In this document: positions 13,493 to 21,380 of the stretch, one piece after another
Position numbering within the stretch: position 1 is the stretch's first letter
Layout: each line of letters begins with the position of its first letter
Source of the DNA: a candidate division WOR-3 bacterium
Lineage (GTDB): Bacteria > SDB-A
Length of the DNA: 21,945 nucleotides
NCBI GenBank assembly: GCA_016926475.1
Contig: JAFGON010000054.1
Location: forward strand, 1 to 21,945
Reading direction: 5' to 3'
The notes under the pieces: model-generated
The model's input: the letters and a program-made list of their open reading frames with translations, nothing else
What the model was told of the DNA's origin: nothing
Database searches by the model: none
Made by a program: the position numbers and the translations under genes

Positions 13493-16027
13493 ATGCCGGT
13501 ATTAACATTTTTAATGATAATTCAGGTGTTTCAATCTACTCTTCCAAACGGACTTAGAGTCGTCCTTGAGGAAGATCATTCTTCGCCGATAACCACCGTG
13601 AGAATTTTCATGGATCAAGGATCTATCTACGAAGGCTTCAACACTGGAAGAGGGCTTTCGCACTTCTGTGAACACATAGTCAGCGGCGGCTCGACAGAAT
13701 TCAGAACGGAAGACGAATACAGAGAAATGGAGATGAGATTCAACTCCAGGTCTAACGCCTATACTTCATGGGAAGTCACCTGTTATCACCAGACTGTTCC
13801 TTCAAGGTATTCCGACTCGGTCGCAATGATGCTGATGGAACAAGTTTTTTCTTGCAGTGTCGACACTTTTGAAGTCAGGAGAGAACACGGCGTCATACAT
13901 CATGAAATTCTGACCTCGGACACTCCGGACGAAAGAATTTGGAGGGCGGCTTTCGTTTTTTTCTTCGGCAACCATCCTATTTCAGTGCCGATTCTCGGGC
14001 AAGAAGACGCCATGCTCGCGATTACACAAGAACAACTTGTAAGTTTCTACAAAACCCATTATTCACCTGGTAATGCAGTTCTCGTAGCCGTCGGAGATTT
14101 CGAAACTTCCCAGCTCTACGATTTTATTTTACACGAGTCCGAAAAGTTTCCGGGAAGAGCTTATGAACCTTCTACAACCCCTTCAACCCCCATATACACA
14201 CACCCGAGAACCGACACTTTTTTCGATGAAATCCCCAACCCTCTTTGTTATTTGATGTGGACAGGGTGCCAGGAGACAAAACCTGAATATACAGCCCTTT
14301 CTGTCATATCAGAGTACCTGACAGGCGGACAATCATCACATCTTGAAAATATACTCATAGATGAAAAAGAACTCGCTTATGAGGTCTGGAGTTATAACAT
14401 GGGTTTGAGAAGAGCCGACGGCGCTTTCATAATTTCCATCTCTTCAGAAGACCCTAAAAAACTTCAAGAGGGAATCGAAATAGTCCAGTCTGAATTAGAT
14501 AAAATCGCAAGAGGCGGAATAGACGAATCGAGATTGACCAGAACAAAAAATCTACTTCGATACGCTCTTTTGAAAGACTGGACGGCGTCAATGAAGTCAG
14601 GACTCATAGGCGATGGAATTCTTACAGCAAACGACCCTCTGTATTTTCAAAAGACATTAGAGAATATTTCCGGTGTATCAGCCCAGGATATCTCAAAAAT
14701 CGCCCTCTCGATGCTGTCTTCAGAAAAAAGACAGACGTTTTTTGCTTTCCCATCCGAATACAATCAAATCACTGGAATTTACGATACTTATACAGGCGCC
14801 ATCCCCTTCGTCATCTACGAGGGCGCTGGAACACCCGCTATAATTTCCCAGAGAGATTCTTCTTCTCTTTATGTCTCCTTGCAGGTTGCTTTCGGAGGCG
14901 GCAGTTCTATCGATCCCCTCGGAAAAGAGGGCGCAATGGAAATGCTTTCTGAAATTCTCGGTTTGAGGACCAAATCCTTTGATTTAGATGGTTTTAAAGA
15001 AAAAATGGATGAACTCGGGATATCGAGAAATTCAAGATGCTACGACAACTATTTAGTCATCAACTACGATTTTCCGCTGGAAAATTTCAAAAAAGCGATG
15101 GAGTTGATAGGAGAAGCCATTTCATATCCCGATTTCTCGGATAAATCCCTGAGCGACATAAAAAAAGACATGCTATACAAACTCGACCAGAACAACACGA
15201 ATCCCAACTACAGGCACAATGTATTTTACACGTCAAAGCTCTACCCCGAAAACACATACGGAAGGTGCCAAGACGAAGTTTCAATAAACAGTATCGAAGA
15301 ATCCGACCTAAGAGCTTTGTTTGACAAAATATTAGTAGGCAAAAACGTCGTTGTATCTCTATCGGGCAACGTCTCCCCCGAAGACATTCTCGCTTCTGTA
15401 GAAAGCCGCTTTCCTCATCTTCTTCAGGGCGCTTCACTCGCCATGCTCCCCCCATCTGAAATACAATCCCTCATGGACGACAGTTTGATTTACGAATTTC
15501 AGCAGACTCTTGTAACTTTGGCTTTTCCTACTGTCCCCTGGAATCATCCGGACATGCCTGTTTTATACGTCATCGATGAGTTGATGTCCGGACCTAATTC
15601 AAGGATTCACGAAGCTCTCAGGGGAAGACAGGACCTGGTCTACTGGGGTTGGGGCTACCAGGAGAGCTTCAGCGACATAGGCTCGTTTGTTTTTATTGCC
15701 CAGACCAGCCTAAAAAATGAAGACAAAGTCAAAAACGCTTTTCTTGAAGAAATCAATCTCGTAAAATCCGAGCTTCTCAGCGGAGAAGAGCTTGCAAACC
15801 TGAAAAATAGCATCTTCGCGAGTTGGGATATGACGTCCCAAAATCCTTTTTCAAAACTCACAAGGCGTTCATATCTCTATCTCTCCGGTTTAGAAATCGA
15901 CTATTACGAGGATGATTTCAAGTCAAGAATTCAAGAAGTCACTTCTGAGGACGTAAGAAACGCCGCGCTGAAATATTTTGACGGAGGACATTGGTTTGTT
16001 TCAAGACCCGATGAGAGCAGTTATTGA
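13493..16027 (+). CDS. M16 family zinc metallopeptidase, two-domain full-length form
   Basis: 844 residues, long enough for two homologous M16 units of about 420 residues each on one chain. The first half has the inverted zinc motif HFCEH (His57, Glu60, His61) and the third ligand Glu138, 77 residues after His61 as in pitrilysin; Glu131 matches the additional conserved acidic residue. The second half contains SRIHEALRGRQDLVYWGWGY (~residue 702), which fits the substrate-binding Arg/Tyr region of the inactive half. It should therefore be an active peptide-degrading enzyme. The first ~15 residues are hydrophobic (PVLTFLMIIQVFQS) but have no positive charge, so export to the periplasm is possible but unproven. 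GGAG lies five bases before the ATG. It is first in an operon with the cyclase gene, 18 bases downstream. Confidence 0.92.
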   Translation: MPVLTFLMIIQVFQSTLPNGLRVVLEEDHSSPITTVRIFMDQGSIYEGFNTGRGLSHFCEHIVSGGSTEFRTEDEYREMEMRFNSRSNAYTSWEVTCYHQTVPSRYSDSVAMMLMEQVFSCSVDTFEVRREHGVIHHEILTSDTPDERIWRAAFVFFFGNHPISVPILGQEDAMLAITQEQLVSFYKTHYSPGNAVLVAVGDFETSQLYDFILHESEKFPGRAYEPSTTPSTPIYTHPRTDTFFDEIPNPLCYLMWTGCQETKPEYTALSVISEYLTGGQSSHLENILIDEKELAYEVWSYNMGLRRADGAFIISISSEDPKKLQEGIEIVQSELDKIARGGIDESRLTRTKNLLRYALLKDWTASMKSGLIGDGILTANDPLYFQKTLENISGVSAQDISKIALSMLSSEKRQTFFAFPSEYNQITGIYDTYTGAIPFVIYEGAGTPAIISQRDSSSLYVSLQVAFGGGSSIDPLGKEGAMEMLSEILGLRTKSFDLDGFKEKMDELGISRNSRCYDNYLVINYDFPLENFKKAMELIGEAISYPDFSDKSLSDIKKDMLYKLDQNNTNPNYRHNVFYTSKLYPENTYGRCQDEVSINSIEESDLRALFDKILVGKNVVVSLSGNVSPEDILASVESRFPHLLQGASLAMLPPSEIQSLMDDSLIYEFQQTLVTLAFPTVPWNHPDMPVLYVIDELMSGPNSRIHEALRGRQDLVYWGWGYQESFSDIGSFVFIAQTSLKNEDKVKNAFLEEINLVKSELLSGEELANLKNSIFASWDMTSQNPFSKLTRRSYLYLSGLEIDYYEDDFKSRIQEVTSEDVRNAALKYFDGGHWFVSRPDESSY

Positions 16028-16041: not shown

Positions 16042-16045
16042 TTTG

Positions 16046-19000
16046 ATGAAAAACCTCATCCCTTATTTAGTTAAAAAGAAGTTTTCCGAAGGCAAAACCC
16101 ACGGCGACCTGGATTGTTATGTTTTACTGGCAGACCTGACCGGTTTTTCTGGAGTGACAGACAGATGTCTGAAAATGGGCAAAAAAGGCTGTGAAAAGAT
16201 AAAGGACCTTTTATCTTTGGCTTTCGACTCTTCAATAAATGCAGTGTACGACAGCGGAGGTTTCATAGAAGCCTTTGCCGGCGACGGGTTTACCGCGTTG
16301 TTTGACAAAAATTCATGTGAAATTGAAAATATTTTTAAAGCGGCATCTGAAATATCGAACACCCTGGTAGAAGACGGACTCGACAGCATGACTTTCAAGA
16401 TAGGCTTGTCGGCGGGTATCTGTTCTTGGAAAATCATCGAAACACATTACCAGATAACTTATTTCTTTGAAGGGGAAGGCATAGAGAGGGCTGCATATTT
16501 CAAGAGCAGAGCGTCTCCCCGCGAAGTTATTGTCGATTTCAGACTCATAAAAGAAGTCAAAAACAAGGATTTGATTGTAAAGAAAGGAGAAAATTTTCTC
16601 CTTTCTCAAAAAGCCAGGTTTGACCCAAAGGAAAATCTTTATACCCCTCTTTCCGGAGCTCCATTCGACGAGACTCCTTGGATAAATCCCGCCCTCGTTT
16701 CAGAGGGCGGCACAGCGGAGTTCAGGGACGTAGTCTCGCTTTTCATTTGCTTTGAAAGGTCAAACGATTCACTATACGGACTCAGAAAGATAGCGGAACT
16801 GTCTTACGAAAACGGCGGGTACCTAAACAAGATCGATTTTGGCGACAAAGGAGGGATTGCTCTCGTCCTGTTCGGCGCTCCCTGTGAAATAGAAAAAAAA
16901 TACACACGCGCCGCTGACTACGCATTGTCATTGAGAAGAATTCATAAATTCGAAAATAAAATCGGAATTTCATGCGGCAAGGTTTTCTGCGGTTTCATTG
17001 GAAACGAAAAGCGTTCGGAATATACCGTCCTGGGAACCGCGGCCAACGTTTCATCGCGCCTCGCCGAAAAAGCTTCAAACCGAGAGATATTGATGGACGA
17101 GTCATTTTCAAAGAAAATTTCAGACAATTTCAAAACATATCCGGTCGGAGAAGAAAATCTACGAGGGATGAAAGGAAATACGAAAATACTCGGTTTGAGT
17201 TCCAAAAAAAGAGGTGAAGACGCAAAGAAAACGGAAAAAGCTCCATTCACCGGAAGAAAAAACGAGATATCCGCCCTGAAGTCAATCGCAAACGCCGTTT
17301 TCACATCAAAAAAATCTCATTTCGTTGTTTTGTCTGGTCAAACCGGTATTGGTAAAAGCAGGCTTATAGAGGAATTCAACCTTTCTTTCTCCGGGTGCGA
17401 TTTTAAAATAATCGAAATCGTATGCGATGATGTCCTGAGAAAACCATTCAGCGCTTTGAAAGGCTACTTGAAAACTGTTTTTGAATTTTCAGAAAACGAT
17501 AATGAGTTTTTAAACAGGGTCCGTTTTGAAGACATTTTATTTAGAAAAATCAACAAAGCCTTAGAGAGCGACGACAAAGAGACTTCTGAGAAGATATCTC
17601 TTTCTTCGGAATGTTTTTCATTCTTTTTGGGCTTCGACCTTGAAAATAGCGAGTTCCAAATTTTAGACGCCAAGACCAAATACAGGATATGTTCAAGAGC
17701 TCTCAAAGATCTTTTACTTTTCGAATGCTCCGAAAAACCGACAATTTTGGAAATTTTCAACTCAGATAACATGGACGAAGACTCTCTTGCCGTGATCAGC
17801 GACCTGACAATTCCCCTGAAAACAACTCAGACAATGGTCGTTTTTGAAACCAGAGACCTTTCTTTCGGGGACAGGATAAAGCTATTTGACCAAACAGAAA
17901 ACACCAAGATAAATTTATCTAAACTGTCCCACGGTGAAAGCGAAAGTCTTTTGAGGATATTCATGGATATATACGGAAGGCAAAACGAATCCGTCTTGTT
18001 CAGCGACGAACATTACAACATAACAGAGGGCAATCCTCTTTACCTTGAAAACCTAGCGAGAACTGTCACGAGTGAAGATTCTCTTTCGGATCCCTCTTCG
18101 TTAATAGGTTTTCTTTCCGACCCCCCGGACCTTTCGAGTCTCATACTCTCAAGGTATGACAGGTTTCCCAAAAGTATAAAAGAGGCGGTTCGGGTCGCTT
18201 CCGTCCTTGGAGTTTCGTTCACAGATGGATTGTTCGAGTCTGTTTTCAAAGAATTGTTTCCTGAATTCAAATCGCGGGATTGCCTGCAAAACGCGCTTAG
18301 CAATGATGTGTTTAAAAAGACGACAGAAGGATACTCGTTTTCGAGCGCGTTGATGAGGGAAATTGTCTACGGCATTCAGATGAATCCCTTCCTTTCAAAA
18401 GCGCACTTCCTTGCTGCCGAATACCTGCAGAGAAAAAAATCAGTGGACAAGTTGTCTCTCGAAGAAATCGCCAAACACTATATAGCAGCCGAAAAGTTCC
18501 GTGAAGGGGCAACAGTCCTGTTGGAAGCGGCAAAATCGTTATACGGCCTTTACCTCAACCACAGAGCGCTCGCCTGCCTTGATAATGCACAAGAAATCTG
18601 CACCAAAGACAATACATCCTTGGAAAATTTTGAGATTCAGTATTATAAAGCTTCGATTTACAGGCTGACTGGAAAATGGGTCGGCGCTAAATCTTGCGCT
18701 CAAAAGTGTCTTTGGACTGCCCATAGGCATAAAATGCCAAAAGAGTATTGTCTTGGTCTCGACATTTTGGCCTCTCTCGAGAGAAATTCCGGAAACACTT
18801 TAAAAGCATTGAACATCGCCAAGAGGGGATTGAAAATAGCCGAATCGATAAAAGACGATTTTATGACCTCGATCATGGAAACCTCTTTGGGTCACACCCT
18901 GTTTAGAAGGGGGGACTACCAGGAAGCTTTAGCCCGTTATTCAAATTCCCTATCCCTGTCAAAAGACGATAAACTTCTTAAATCCAAAATTTTAAACAAC

Positions 19001-19867
19001 ATCGCCAACATCTGGGCTGAAATCGGAAATTTCGAAAAATCTCTTGAATTCTACACAGAATCCCTCAAATTGTGCAGAGAGAATCGGGATATAGCAACCG
19101 AATCAGTTGCTCTTTTAAACATTGGAACCATTTTCCACTCTCTTGATGAATACGAAAAAGCCATGGACTCGTATTCCAAGGGCTTGGCTCTGAAAAATAT
19201 TTACGGAGATGAAGACGGCATTCTGATTTTGAAAAGCAACATGGGCTCCGTCCAGGAAGCCATTGGTGATTTTAAAAAAGCTTTAGAGCTTTTCAAAGAA
19301 AGCGCCGAAAAGGCGAGAGAAATAGGCGACGGCAGAAGTCTTTCAATCGCCCTTGTAAACATGGCAGGGGTTCATAAGGACCTAAATGAAATAGAAGAAG
19401 CCGAAAAACTATACACAGAAGCCATAGAGATTTCAAAGAAAACAGGTTCAATATACAACTTGAGCAATTCTTTCTACCAACTCGCAGATTTGAATTTCGA
19501 GAAAAAAGATTACAACAAATCTGAAACCTATCTGGAACGAGCCCGTGGGCTGGCTTTAAAAGTCGGCAGAAAAAACGTTCTGGAAAACTGTGAAATTCTC
19601 GGGCACGCGCTGGATTATGTGAAGGGCAAATCTCCCGACAGAGCTATTTCAGAGCTCGATAAAAAACATCTGCTTTCAAAAGACAAAAAAGTTAAAGCCG
19701 ATATATCCTACATAATTTTCCAATTGACAAAAAATCCCCGAAAGGCGGAACGGGCTTTAAAAGAGTACTCTGCCTTGTCGAAAATGTCGAAAAACGTGCT
19801 GTATAAAAACAGAAAAGAAGAAATCCAAAATTTTCTTGCTTCAAAGTCTGACGAGGAGGATAGATGA
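16046..19867 (+). CDS. sAC-type adenylate cyclase: tandem class III cyclase domains, P-loop ATPase and TPR array
   Basis: 1273 residues, no signal peptide or membrane span. C1 (~residues 20-165) holds the two metal-binding Asp, Asp30 in ADLTGF and Asp80 in FAGDGF. C2 (~225-385) lacks metal Asp at the first position (LFICFER) but carries Lys262 (YLNK), Thr327 (EYTVLG), Asn334 and Arg338 (ANVSSR). These are the adenine-selecting and transition-state residues of mammalian sAC (ADCY10). Together they form one complete composite site, so ATP to cAMP conversion is predicted. A P-loop ATPase follows: FTGRKNEI at ~401, Walker A GQTGIGKS (431-438). Its Walker B equivalent, EIFNSDNMDEDS, lacks the usual acidic pair. 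Residues ~780-1270 are TPR-like repeats of about 40 residues (e.g. ALARYSNSLSLS, SLEFYTESLKLC, AMDSYSKGLALK). It lies in an operon with the M16 peptidase and overlaps the next gene by ATGA. It is probably a cytoplasmic, ligand-gated cAMP source. Confidence 0.9.
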   Translation: MKNLIPYLVKKKFSEGKTHGDLDCYVLLADLTGFSGVTDRCLKMGKKGCEKIKDLLSLAFDSSINAVYDSGGFIEAFAGDGFTALFDKNSCEIENIFKAASEISNTLVEDGLDSMTFKIGLSAGICSWKIIETHYQITYFFEGEGIERAAYFKSRASPREVIVDFRLIKEVKNKDLIVKKGENFLLSQKARFDPKENLYTPLSGAPFDETPWINPALVSEGGTAEFRDVVSLFICFERSNDSLYGLRKIAELSYENGGYLNKIDFGDKGGIALVLFGAPCEIEKKYTRAADYALSLRRIHKFENKIGISCGKVFCGFIGNEKRSEYTVLGTAANVSSRLAEKASNREILMDESFSKKISDNFKTYPVGEENLRGMKGNTKILGLSSKKRGEDAKKTEKAPFTGRKNEISALKSIANAVFTSKKSHFVVLSGQTGIGKSRLIEEFNLSFSGCDFKIIEIVCDDVLRKPFSALKGYLKTVFEFSENDNEFLNRVRFEDILFRKINKALESDDKETSEKISLSSECFSFFLGFDLENSEFQILDAKTKYRICSRALKDLLLFECSEKPTILEIFNSDNMDEDSLAVISDLTIPLKTTQTMVVFETRDLSFGDRIKLFDQTENTKINLSKLSHGESESLLRIFMDIYGRQNESVLFSDEHYNITEGNPLYLENLARTVTSEDSLSDPSSLIGFLSDPPDLSSLILSRYDRFPKSIKEAVRVASVLGVSFTDGLFESVFKELFPEFKSRDCLQNALSNDVFKKTTEGYSFSSALMREIVYGIQMNPFLSKAHFLAAEYLQRKKSVDKLSLEEIAKHYIAAEKFREGATVLLEAAKSLYGLYLNHRALACLDNAQEICTKDNTSLENFEIQYYKASIYRLTGKWVGAKSCAQKCLWTAHRHKMPKEYCLGLDILASLERNSGNTLKALNIAKRGLKIAESIKDDFMTSIMETSLGHTLFRRGDYQEALARYSNSLSLSKDDKLLKSKILNNIANIWAEIGNFEKSLEFYTESLKLCRENRDIATESVALLNIGTIFHSLDEYEKAMDSYSKGLALKNIYGDEDGILILKSNMGSVQEAIGDFKKALELFKESAEKAREIGDGRSLSIALVNMAGVHKDLNEIEEAEKLYTEAIEISKKTGSIYNLSNSFYQLADLNFEKKDYNKSETYLERARGLALKVGRKNVLENCEILGHALDYVKGKSPDRAISELDKKHLLSKDKKVKADISYIIFQLTKNPRKAERALKEYSALSKMSKNVLYKNRKEEIQNFLASKSDEEDR
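16581..16606. repeat. Perfect 26-base palindrome inside the cyclase gene
   Basis: AGAAAGGAGAAAA (16581-16593) is followed immediately by its exact reverse complement, 16594-16606. It encodes KKGENFLLS between the C1 and C2 domains. Both strands carry an internal AAAGGAG motif. No T-run follows, so it is not an intrinsic terminator. Confidence 0.6.
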
Positions 19868-20340
19868 AAATCAGCCAAGAGATAGTCCAGGGATTCCACA
19901 GAAAGACAGCTCAGGAGCTTTTCAATTACGTCTGGGAACTTCTGGACAAGACCGAAAGAACCGAAAAGGAAAACAGAATCATGATACACGCAGCACACGC
20001 TTCTCTTTTTCATTGGCTTCAGGTTGGAGACGCCGAAAACGAGTTCATAGGAGAATGGCAGATATCAAGAGTTTACAGCACTCTGAATAAAGGAGAATCG
20101 GCTTTATACCACGCCAAGATTTCTCTTGAGGTCTGCGAAAATAATAAATTCACAGGTTTCAACCCCGCCTGCGCTTACGAAGCTCTCGCAAGGGCTCATT
20201 GGGTTCTCAAAGACAGGGAAAACGCGTCGAATTTTCTTAGAAAATCTGTCGAAGAGAGTAAAAAAATCACAGACGAAGAAGAAAAAAAACTGATCGACGG
20301 AGATATAGAGAATCTTTCAACACTTGTAAACCGCGATTAG
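19864..20340 (+). CDS. Small conserved helical/TPR-like protein coupled to the cyclase
   Basis: 158 residues, predicted all-helical, no signal peptide. The core contains HAAHASLFHWLQVG, then GEWQISRVYSTLNKGESAL, ALYHAKISLEVCENN and AYEALARAHWVLKDRENA. From memory this matches a widespread uncharacterised bacterial family with conserved HASxxHW, GEWQISRVY and YEALARA blocks. The invariant-looking His, Trp, Glu and Arg residues hint at ligand binding or catalysis instead of a plain scaffold, but the function is unknown. The ATG overlaps the cyclase TGA (ATGA at 19864-19867), with GAGGAGGA directly upstream, so translational coupling is likely. Its stop lies inside the 3' end of the convergent Nudix gene. 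Confidence 0.82.
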   Translation: MKISQEIVQGFHRKTAQELFNYVWELLDKTERTEKENRIMIHAAHASLFHWLQVGDAENEFIGEWQISRVYSTLNKGESALYHAKISLEVCENNKFTGFNPACAYEALARAHWVLKDRENASNFLRKSVEESKKITDEEEKKLIDGDIENLSTLVNRD

Positions 20341-20810: not shown

Positions 20811-20870
20811 CTTTCAAAAAAACTACAATAAAAACGGCGCATGAAACGTCTTATAAGCAAAAGGTATGAA

Positions 20871-21380
20871 ATGAACCAGATTTTAATACAAAAATTCAAG
20901 GACGAGAAAGCAAAGCTTTTTTCCTACATAAAATCGATGGTTGACGATTCCGACGAAGCCCAAGATATACTGCAGGACGTTTTTTTATGCGCTCTTCTCA
21001 ATTTTGACACAATAAAATCCATTGAAACTTTGACTTCTTGGCTATTTGCTGTGGCTCGAAACAAAGCCCTGGATTATTTCAGAAGAAAAAAAAACACAGT
21101 CGCCGATCTCGAACTTGAGGACTTGATCGATGACAGGAGCCAGGACATCGACAGCGAGGTCAAAATTGAAGTTTTCACCGACAGAGTTTCAACCATTTTG
21201 TCGTCTATGCCTGAAAACCTTAGAAGCGTATTTTTGTATCACGAAATCGAGGGCATGACATTTAAGGAAATTTCAAATTTAACAGGGATCCCAATCAACA
21301 CTTTACTGACGAGAAAAAGAGAGGCTTTAAAATACATTCAGAAAAAAATAAAAATATACAAGGAGGATTTATGTTCTTGA
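20871..21380 (+). CDS. ECF-type (group IV) RNA polymerase sigma factor
   Basis: 169 residues. Region 2 is visible as DEAQDILQDVFLCALLNF...WLFAVARNKALDYFRRKK (core binding and -10 recognition). Region 4 is LRSVFLYHEIEGMTFKEISNLTGIPINTLLTRKREAL (helix-turn-helix for -35 recognition). No region 3 lies between them, only a short acidic linker, as expected for ECF sigmas. It redirects RNA polymerase to a stress or envelope regulon. I prefer the ATG at 20871 because AAAAGG sits six bases upstream and the N terminus then matches the family. An in-frame ATG at 20841 would add 10 basic residues with a poorer ribosome binding site. The gene overlaps the following membrane-protein gene by 10 bases, so that product is the likely partner or regulator. 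Confidence 0.93.
   Translation: MNQILIQKFKDEKAKLFSYIKSMVDDSDEAQDILQDVFLCALLNFDTIKSIETLTSWLFAVARNKALDYFRRKKNTVADLELEDLIDDRSQDIDSEVKIEVFTDRVSTILSSMPENLRSVFLYHEIEGMTFKEISNLTGIPINTLLTRKREALKYIQKKIKIYKEDLCS

Follow-up and report, generated by a model that had tools for sequence, protein, structure and literature searches.

A bacterial tandem cyclase of the soluble adenylyl cyclase family with a STAND-TPR tail and without the mammalian bicarbonate pair

A gene of a candidate division WOR-3 bacterium (assembly GCA_016926475.1, contig JAFGON010000054.1) encodes a 1273-residue protein, P0001, which is a bacterial tandem cyclase of the soluble adenylyl cyclase (sAC) type and is likely to work as a ligand-gated enzyme that forms cyclic AMP (cAMP) and is not activated by bicarbonate through the Arg176 mechanism. 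The stretch analysed, called the window below, is 21,945 nucleotides long and represents a complete contig (C54) of a genome of 2.15 Mb in 106 contigs, with a completeness estimate of 100%. The frame of P0001 (16046–19867, forward strand) holds 1273 codons counted from ATG and no internal stops; the mechanical start of the open reading frame was a TTG at 16043, one codon ahead of the ATG. In animals sAC is the bicarbonate and pH sensor that activates sperm, and it is debated whether control by bicarbonate is the ancestral state.

The Pfam domains of P0001 were found in the order Guanylate_cyc (residues 300–380), AAA_16 (400–588) and many TPRs (about 920–1200). The first cyclase domain, C1, stayed below the Pfam threshold when scanned as a single sequence, being too divergent, and a phmmer comparison with human sAC (ADCY10) recovered both C1 (residues 22–162, independent E-value 2.2e-05) and the second domain, C2 (258–339, 2e-08). 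When residues 1–400 were compared by phmmer with all PDB chains, human sAC came first with both domains (E 2.6e-17), followed by bacterial cyclases of the Cya2/CyaC type, none of them better than 5e-8. A profile built from 63 bacterial rows matched human sAC across C1 and C2 with 198 bits (E 1.8e-57), the runner-up being CyaB with 96 bits. The head of P0001 is nearer to sAC than to any other class III cyclase of solved structure. The first-pass annotation had described the protein as a look-alike of animal sAC with the same order of tandem cyclases, P-loop and TPRs; this order was borne out by Pfam, by the alignment to sAC and by the fold matches given below, and the resemblance is real, but it is that of a true homologue and not merely of a look-alike. 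Two other profile matches were judged generic. TIGR03903, the TOMM kinase/cyclase fusion model of NCBIfam, has a cut-off of 705.75 bits, of which P0001 reached only 115, and P0001 has no kinase domain; the PycC profiles of PADLOC matched weakly, only in the generic cyclase C-terminal half of C2, with E-values no better than 5e-9 and thus well short of the sAC match.

The alignment to human sAC identified Asp30 and Asp80 of C1 with sAC Asp47 and Asp99, and Lys262, Thr327, Asn334 and Arg338 of C2 with Lys334, Thr405, Asn412 and Arg416; all six catalytic positions are thus intact in P0001, and Ala76 and Ala150 occupy the places of Lys95 and Arg176, the bicarbonate ligands. Among the 63 diverse bacterial rows both Asp residues and Arg338 were invariant and Asn334 was found in 62, while at the base-recognition positions Lys262 was Lys in 52 and Thr327 was Thr in 59 (Thr or Ser in 62). 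Judged from these rows, the conservation of the composite site, which extends over many bacterial phyla, is far above chance. Conservation between orthologues was also highest in C1 and C2 (59 and 67%), compared with 45% in the NTPase domain. The pseudo-symmetric second site reads as incomplete, with Glu147 and Tyr151 of C1 opposite Asn334 and Arg338 of C2 and with no counterpart of Asp30 in C2. A homodimer in which each domain supplies its own site was rejected, since the Asn/Arg pair is missing from C1 and the first Asp from C2.

A model of residues 1–390 was obtained with AlphaFold2 from 63 natural rows as input, with a mean predicted local distance difference test score (pLDDT) of 93.6 and a predicted template modelling score (pTM) of 0.92. 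Human sAC structures occupied the first 24 places among its fold matches, with Foldseek E-values as low as 1.1e-27. Superposition on human sAC by VIA gave Z 38.4–41.1 and root-mean-square deviations of 2.5–2.9 Å over 380–389 residues, the best one (Z 41, 2.5 Å) covering 384 of the 390 residues; membrane cyclases came next and did not exceed Z 37, and bacterial cyclases with a single domain scored near Z 21. Since one superposition spans both domains, the mutual orientation of C1 and C2 in the model is that of sAC, and the Asp pair of C1 and the catalytic residues of C2 are expected to be placed as they are in sAC. At the level of this superposition, the refuting outcome named in the first-pass annotation, a model in which these residues fail to meet in one pocket, did not arise. 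The model, together with the alignment and the 63-row conservation, supports the one complete composite site that the first-pass annotation had predicted, and all eight of its residue assignments, including Ala at both bicarbonate ligands, agreed with the alignment.

In human sAC, bicarbonate is bound by Lys95 and Arg176, and Arg176 switches Asp99 (PMC12250328). None of the 63 bacterial rows carried Lys or Arg at either position. Among 49 more divergent rows the Lys95 position was Lys in 14 and Arg in 2, and a single row, which lacked the Lys, had Arg at the Arg176 position; both ligands occurred together in none of the rows of a 59-row set. The three sets partly overlap, and the mammalian Lys/Arg pair was absent from every bacterial tandem row examined. 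In most non-mammalian animal sACs, too, at least one of the two ligands is missing, and the two such enzymes tested, from sea urchin and salmon, lack Arg176 or Lys95 and are sensitive to pH but insensitive to bicarbonate (PMC12867704). From these residues it is most likely that P0001 is not activated by bicarbonate via the mammalian Arg176 mechanism.

Downstream of the head, a model of residues 391–960 had a pLDDT of 87.5 and a pTM of only 0.63. Its fold matches were MalT (8bob, Z 22.9 over 381 residues), Apaf-1 (Z 20.6), the NB-ARC domain of NRC1 (Z 20.9) and PH0952 (6mfv, Z 20.9 with a large deviation). As modelled, the tail of P0001 is a STAND fold composed of nucleotide-binding, helical, winged-helix and arm elements. 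In STAND-TPR proteins the nucleotide-binding oligomerisation domain is kept closed by contacts with the arm and the sensor and is opened by an inducer (PMC6468293); a STAND domain containing a P-loop has likewise been predicted in full-length human sAC (PMC12802110). The P-loop ATPase of the first-pass annotation stood as far as the P-loop is concerned, but the module is a MalT/Apaf-1-like STAND switch in which the Walker B acids are lost. These acids, E/D-D in nearly all relatives, are replaced by Phe571-Asn572 in P0001 and by F-Q and F-K in its two orthologues, and the winged-helix His of the family (34 of 41 rows) is replaced by Ser767. Judged from these residues, the STAND module of this orthogroup is unlikely to hydrolyse ATP but probably still binds it.

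In the mechanism that we propose, C1 and C2 of a single chain would pair, their interface providing one complete ATP site, and the pseudo-symmetric site would be dead. Asp30 and Asp80 of C1 would hold the metals, Lys262 and Thr327 of C2 would read the adenine, and Asn334 and Arg338 would stabilise the transition state. The TPR superhelix would take up an inducer or a partner protein, and the STAND module would relay this signal as a switch from an autoinhibited to an open state, raising the output of cAMP. In the orthologue group of P0001, gating would rely on nucleotide binding or partner contacts, given ATP that is bound but not hydrolysed. Five proteins that bind cyclic nucleoside monophosphates (cNMPs) are encoded in the genome, and two of them, a CRP-like protein and an MscS-type channel, have the canonical Arg of the phosphate cassette, so that readers of cAMP are plausibly present. 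In the latter (L226:1330-2853, reverse strand, G000:C64), the cNMP-binding domain that carries this cassette is joined to a mechanosensitive channel, and by its sequence the protein is possibly a cAMP-gated channel. A literature search on cAMP signalling in WOR-3 found nothing relevant.

P0001 is not a solitary enzyme. Guanylate_cyc matched 27 times in the 2.15-Mb genome, which encodes 13 tandem C1-C2 proteins with open frames, one of them truncated at the end of a contig, and additional fragments; these 13 genes make up 2.2% of the genome. On C39, C77, C79, C93 and C105, sAC-like genes reach or run off the contig end, so the true number of copies may exceed 13. The two Asp residues, Asn and Arg are kept in 11 of the 13 proteins, the sAC-type Lys/Thr pair in P0001 and four paralogues, and the full D-D-K-K-T-N-R set, counting Lys118 (sAC Lys144), in 5 of 13, P0001 included. 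An orthogroup of tandem cyclase-STAND proteins that are pseudo-cyclases occurs in three congeners (L039:2310-6029, reverse strand, G000:C33; L105:1304-5029; L123:1086-4799), its G000 copy having Asp30 changed to His, Arg338 to Phe and Lys262 to Leu. Another set (L039:10548-14519, L093 and L114:3037-7032) keeps both metal Asp residues and has Asn334 changed to Ile or Thr and Lys262 to Ser, which may mean a different activity or product. The same genome also encodes single-cyclase AAA_16-TPR proteins (L044 and L045) and a CHASE2-cyclase receptor (L056:2514-4919, reverse strand).

Four genomes of the phylum were in the collection, and each had 15–23 profile matches. A tree of 59 tandem rows showed orthologous sets retained across three congeners, which indicates that the copies are old and maintained. 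Relatives of the same layout were found in Fermentibacteria, Cloacimonadota, Delongbacteria, Coatesbacteria, Mcinerneyibacteriota, Chloroflexota, Planctomycetota, Gemmatimonadetes, Spirochaetes and others, mostly with 1–5 copies per genome and with 9–15 in a few. Of 386 genomes sampled across the domain, 54 had matches with E-values of 1e-25 or lower, and in about 38 of these the match ran over the full tandem. An unrooted maximum-likelihood tree of 57 rows with human sAC included divided the bacterial tandem enzymes into two halves (support 97/99). Human sAC clustered with the bacterial rows L265–L267 (96/91) in one half, and P0001 fell outside this branch, in the opposite half together with most of its own paralogues, two of which (L046 and L047) lay on the sAC side. 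Human sAC was represented by its aligned C1 and C2 letters and has a long branch, so that its placement is moderate evidence; by it P0001, a member of the sAC family, is not the orthologue of ADCY10. L265, L266 and L267 have a 'DDKG' loop in C2 and Lys or Arg at the Lys95 position, and are the better bacterial models for ADCY10.

The positions of the features are collected in the table. M16 peptidase genes also precede the cyclase in G002, where a sister cyclase intervenes, and are present on both sides in G003; the G003 locus (L134, G003:C25) is a tandem cyclase flanked by two M16 peptidase genes. The 158-residue protein encoded immediately downstream of P0001 matched no family model; its gene adjoins the cyclase in three genomes (its own, G001 and G002), and the protein is a candidate partner of the TPR sensor. 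The Nudix and ECF (extracytoplasmic function) sigma factor genes that follow are partly syntenic. Tandem cyclase genes of G002 also stand head-to-tail in pairs with overlaps of 1–4 bp (L117, G002:C20, 1523-9189; L114, G002:C13, 3037-10745). Scans of the window with Rfam gave no matches and no tRNAs were found in it; promoter and terminator scans near the cyclase gene were close to shuffle level.

Table. Features of the cyclase gene and its neighbours (positions in the window)
Feature	Position	Strand	Basis
Tandem class III cyclase-STAND-TPR protein P0001, 1273 residues	16046..19867	+	Open frame, Pfam, sAC homology
C1 cyclase domain, residues ~19-165, predicted metal-binding Asp30 and Asp80	16100..16540	+	phmmer/profile alignment to human sAC C1; AlphaFold2 model
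C2 cyclase domain, residues ~223-390, with Lys262, Thr327, Asn334 and Arg338	16712..17215	+	Pfam Guanylate_cyc 300-380; alignment to sAC C2
Asp30 codon (sAC Asp47, metal)	16133..16135	+	Alignment; 63/63 rows
Asp80 codon (sAC Asp99, metal)	16283..16285	+	Alignment; 63/63 rows
Ala76 codon (position of sAC Lys95, bicarbonate ligand)	16271..16273	+	Alignment; Lys/Arg in 0/63 rows
Ala150 codon (position of sAC Arg176, bicarbonate switch)	16493..16495	+	Alignment; Lys/Arg in 0/63 rows
Lys262 codon (sAC Lys334, base recognition)	16829..16831	+	Alignment; Lys in 52/63
Thr327...Asn334...Arg338 (sAC Thr405, Asn412, Arg416)	17024..17059	+	Thr/Ser 62/63, Asn 62/63, Arg 63/63
STAND switch (nucleotide-binding, helical, winged-helix/arm), residues ~399-780	17240..18385	+	Pfam AAA_16; predicted fold
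Walker A GQTGIGKS (431-438), intact	17336..17359	+	Lys437 in 41/41 family rows
Walker B region (566-577), consensus hhhE/D-D, here Phe571-Asn572	17741..17776	+	Family alignment
TPR superhelix, residues ~800-1235, presumed sensor	18443..19750	+	Pfam TPR_12, four stretches; model of first part
M16 (insulinase-type) peptidase, ends 18 bp 5' of cyclase	13493..16027	+	Pfam
158-residue helical protein, 4-bp overlap with cyclase stop (ATGA coupling)	19864..20340	+	Open reading frame; adjacency kept
Predicted ECF sigma factor, further downstream; membership in cyclase system not implied	20841..21380	+	Pfam; synteny kept in G002

Several points weigh against P0001 being a ligand-gated, cAMP-forming sAC-type enzyme. 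The loss of Walker B argues, at the level of residues, against a classical STAND cycle, and bicarbonate could act through other residues. Several paralogues have altered base-recognition residues (Lys262 changed to Arg, Ser, Asp or Cys; Thr327 to Ser, Val or Ala), so that products other than cAMP are possible for the family. This variability, the weak PycC matches to C2 and the title of Roelofs 2001, as given in PMC6660944, by which a Dictyostelium sAC homologue is a guanylyl cyclase, would fit a head that makes cGMP, cCMP or cUMP instead; P0001 itself, however, keeps the sAC Lys/Thr pair that prevails in the 63 rows, and the generic nature of the PycC matches, confined to the C-terminal half and far under sAC, makes this product quite unlikely. 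Direct gating by pH, by analogy with sea urchin and salmon sAC, would agree with the loss of Lys95 and Arg176 that accompanies pH control in non-mammalian animals (PMC12867704), but the pH-sensing Lys of the sea urchin enzyme, the equivalent of Lys95, is Ala in P0001, and we regard this mode of control as unlikely.

The cyclase fold could also be catalytically idle and serve as a nucleotide or pH sensor or as a scaffold. The pseudo-cyclase orthogroup (G000_L039_2310, G001_L105 and G002_L123) has been retained despite the loss of several catalytic residues, and P0001 has itself lost Walker B; its complete set of catalytic residues, and C1 and C2 that evolve more slowly than the rest, make an idle head very unlikely. 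Joining of STAND-TPR to a cyclase output, numerous divergent paralogues and the PycC matches from PADLOC might recall an NLR-like or Pycsar-like anti-phage system. Such a role is highly improbable, as three congeners share most of the orthologous sets, the M16 peptidase synteny is kept, and no typical Pycsar effector gene was found in the window by Pfam. The reading that we prefer is an sAC-type enzyme that would use ATP and be gated through its STAND-TPR tail.

For a genome of 2.15 Mb, 13 or more copies represent an unusual investment in a single signalling architecture. We put forward, tentatively and with less than even confidence, that the STAND-TPR cyclases of this phylum form an intracellular array of different ligand sensors feeding one shared cyclic-nucleotide pool, with rewiring specific to each orthogroup, such as a hydrolysis-dead switch in the P0001 group and a dead cyclase in another. 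If this were true, the bicarbonate switch of mammalian sAC would be a late addition to an older ligand-gated STAND enzyme. Since the large and diverse bacterial family keeps the catalytic machinery and the STAND-TPR tail and, in every row examined, lacks the bicarbonate pair, the ancestral mode of control becomes testable in soluble bacterial enzymes. The interest of the family is increased by how far it has expanded in a rare phylum, by the degenerate STAND module of the P0001 orthogroup and by the missing mammalian bicarbonate pair in those bacterial rows.

Among known systems, human sAC shares with P0001 the N-terminal C1-C2 tandem, the composite site formed by the Asp pair of C1 and the Lys, Thr, Asn and Arg of C2, the 'DKG' loop of C2 and a downstream P-loop/STAND region. 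It differs in its Lys95 and Arg176, where P0001 has Ala, and in its position on another bacterial branch; P0001 moreover has clear TPRs, and Walker B is lost in its orthogroup. The non-mammalian animal sACs resemble P0001 in that the catalytic residues are kept and the bicarbonate pair is broken, although usually one ligand is changed in them and both in P0001, and regulation by pH has been demonstrated for the animal enzymes only (PMC12867704). With MalT and PH0952, STAND proteins with a TPR sensor, P0001 shares the predicted layout of nucleotide-binding domain, winged helix, arm and TPR, but its output is an N-terminal cyclase and not a C-terminal DNA-binding domain, and its Walker B acids are gone. 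L044 and L045 have the cyclase, AAA_16 and TPR in the same order as P0001, but only a single cyclase domain, so that dimerisation would be needed to form a site. Bacterial sACs with a P-loop NTPase domain were already known in 2002–2004 (Roelofs and Van Haastert 2002; Kobayashi, Buck and Levin 2004, as cited in PMC6660944 and PMC3085406). As those citations present them, they too combine a tandem cyclase with a P-loop domain in bacteria, with the emphasis on bicarbonate-regulated members, whereas the family of P0001 lacks the bicarbonate pair and is strongly expanded; P0001 adds a member to that kind.

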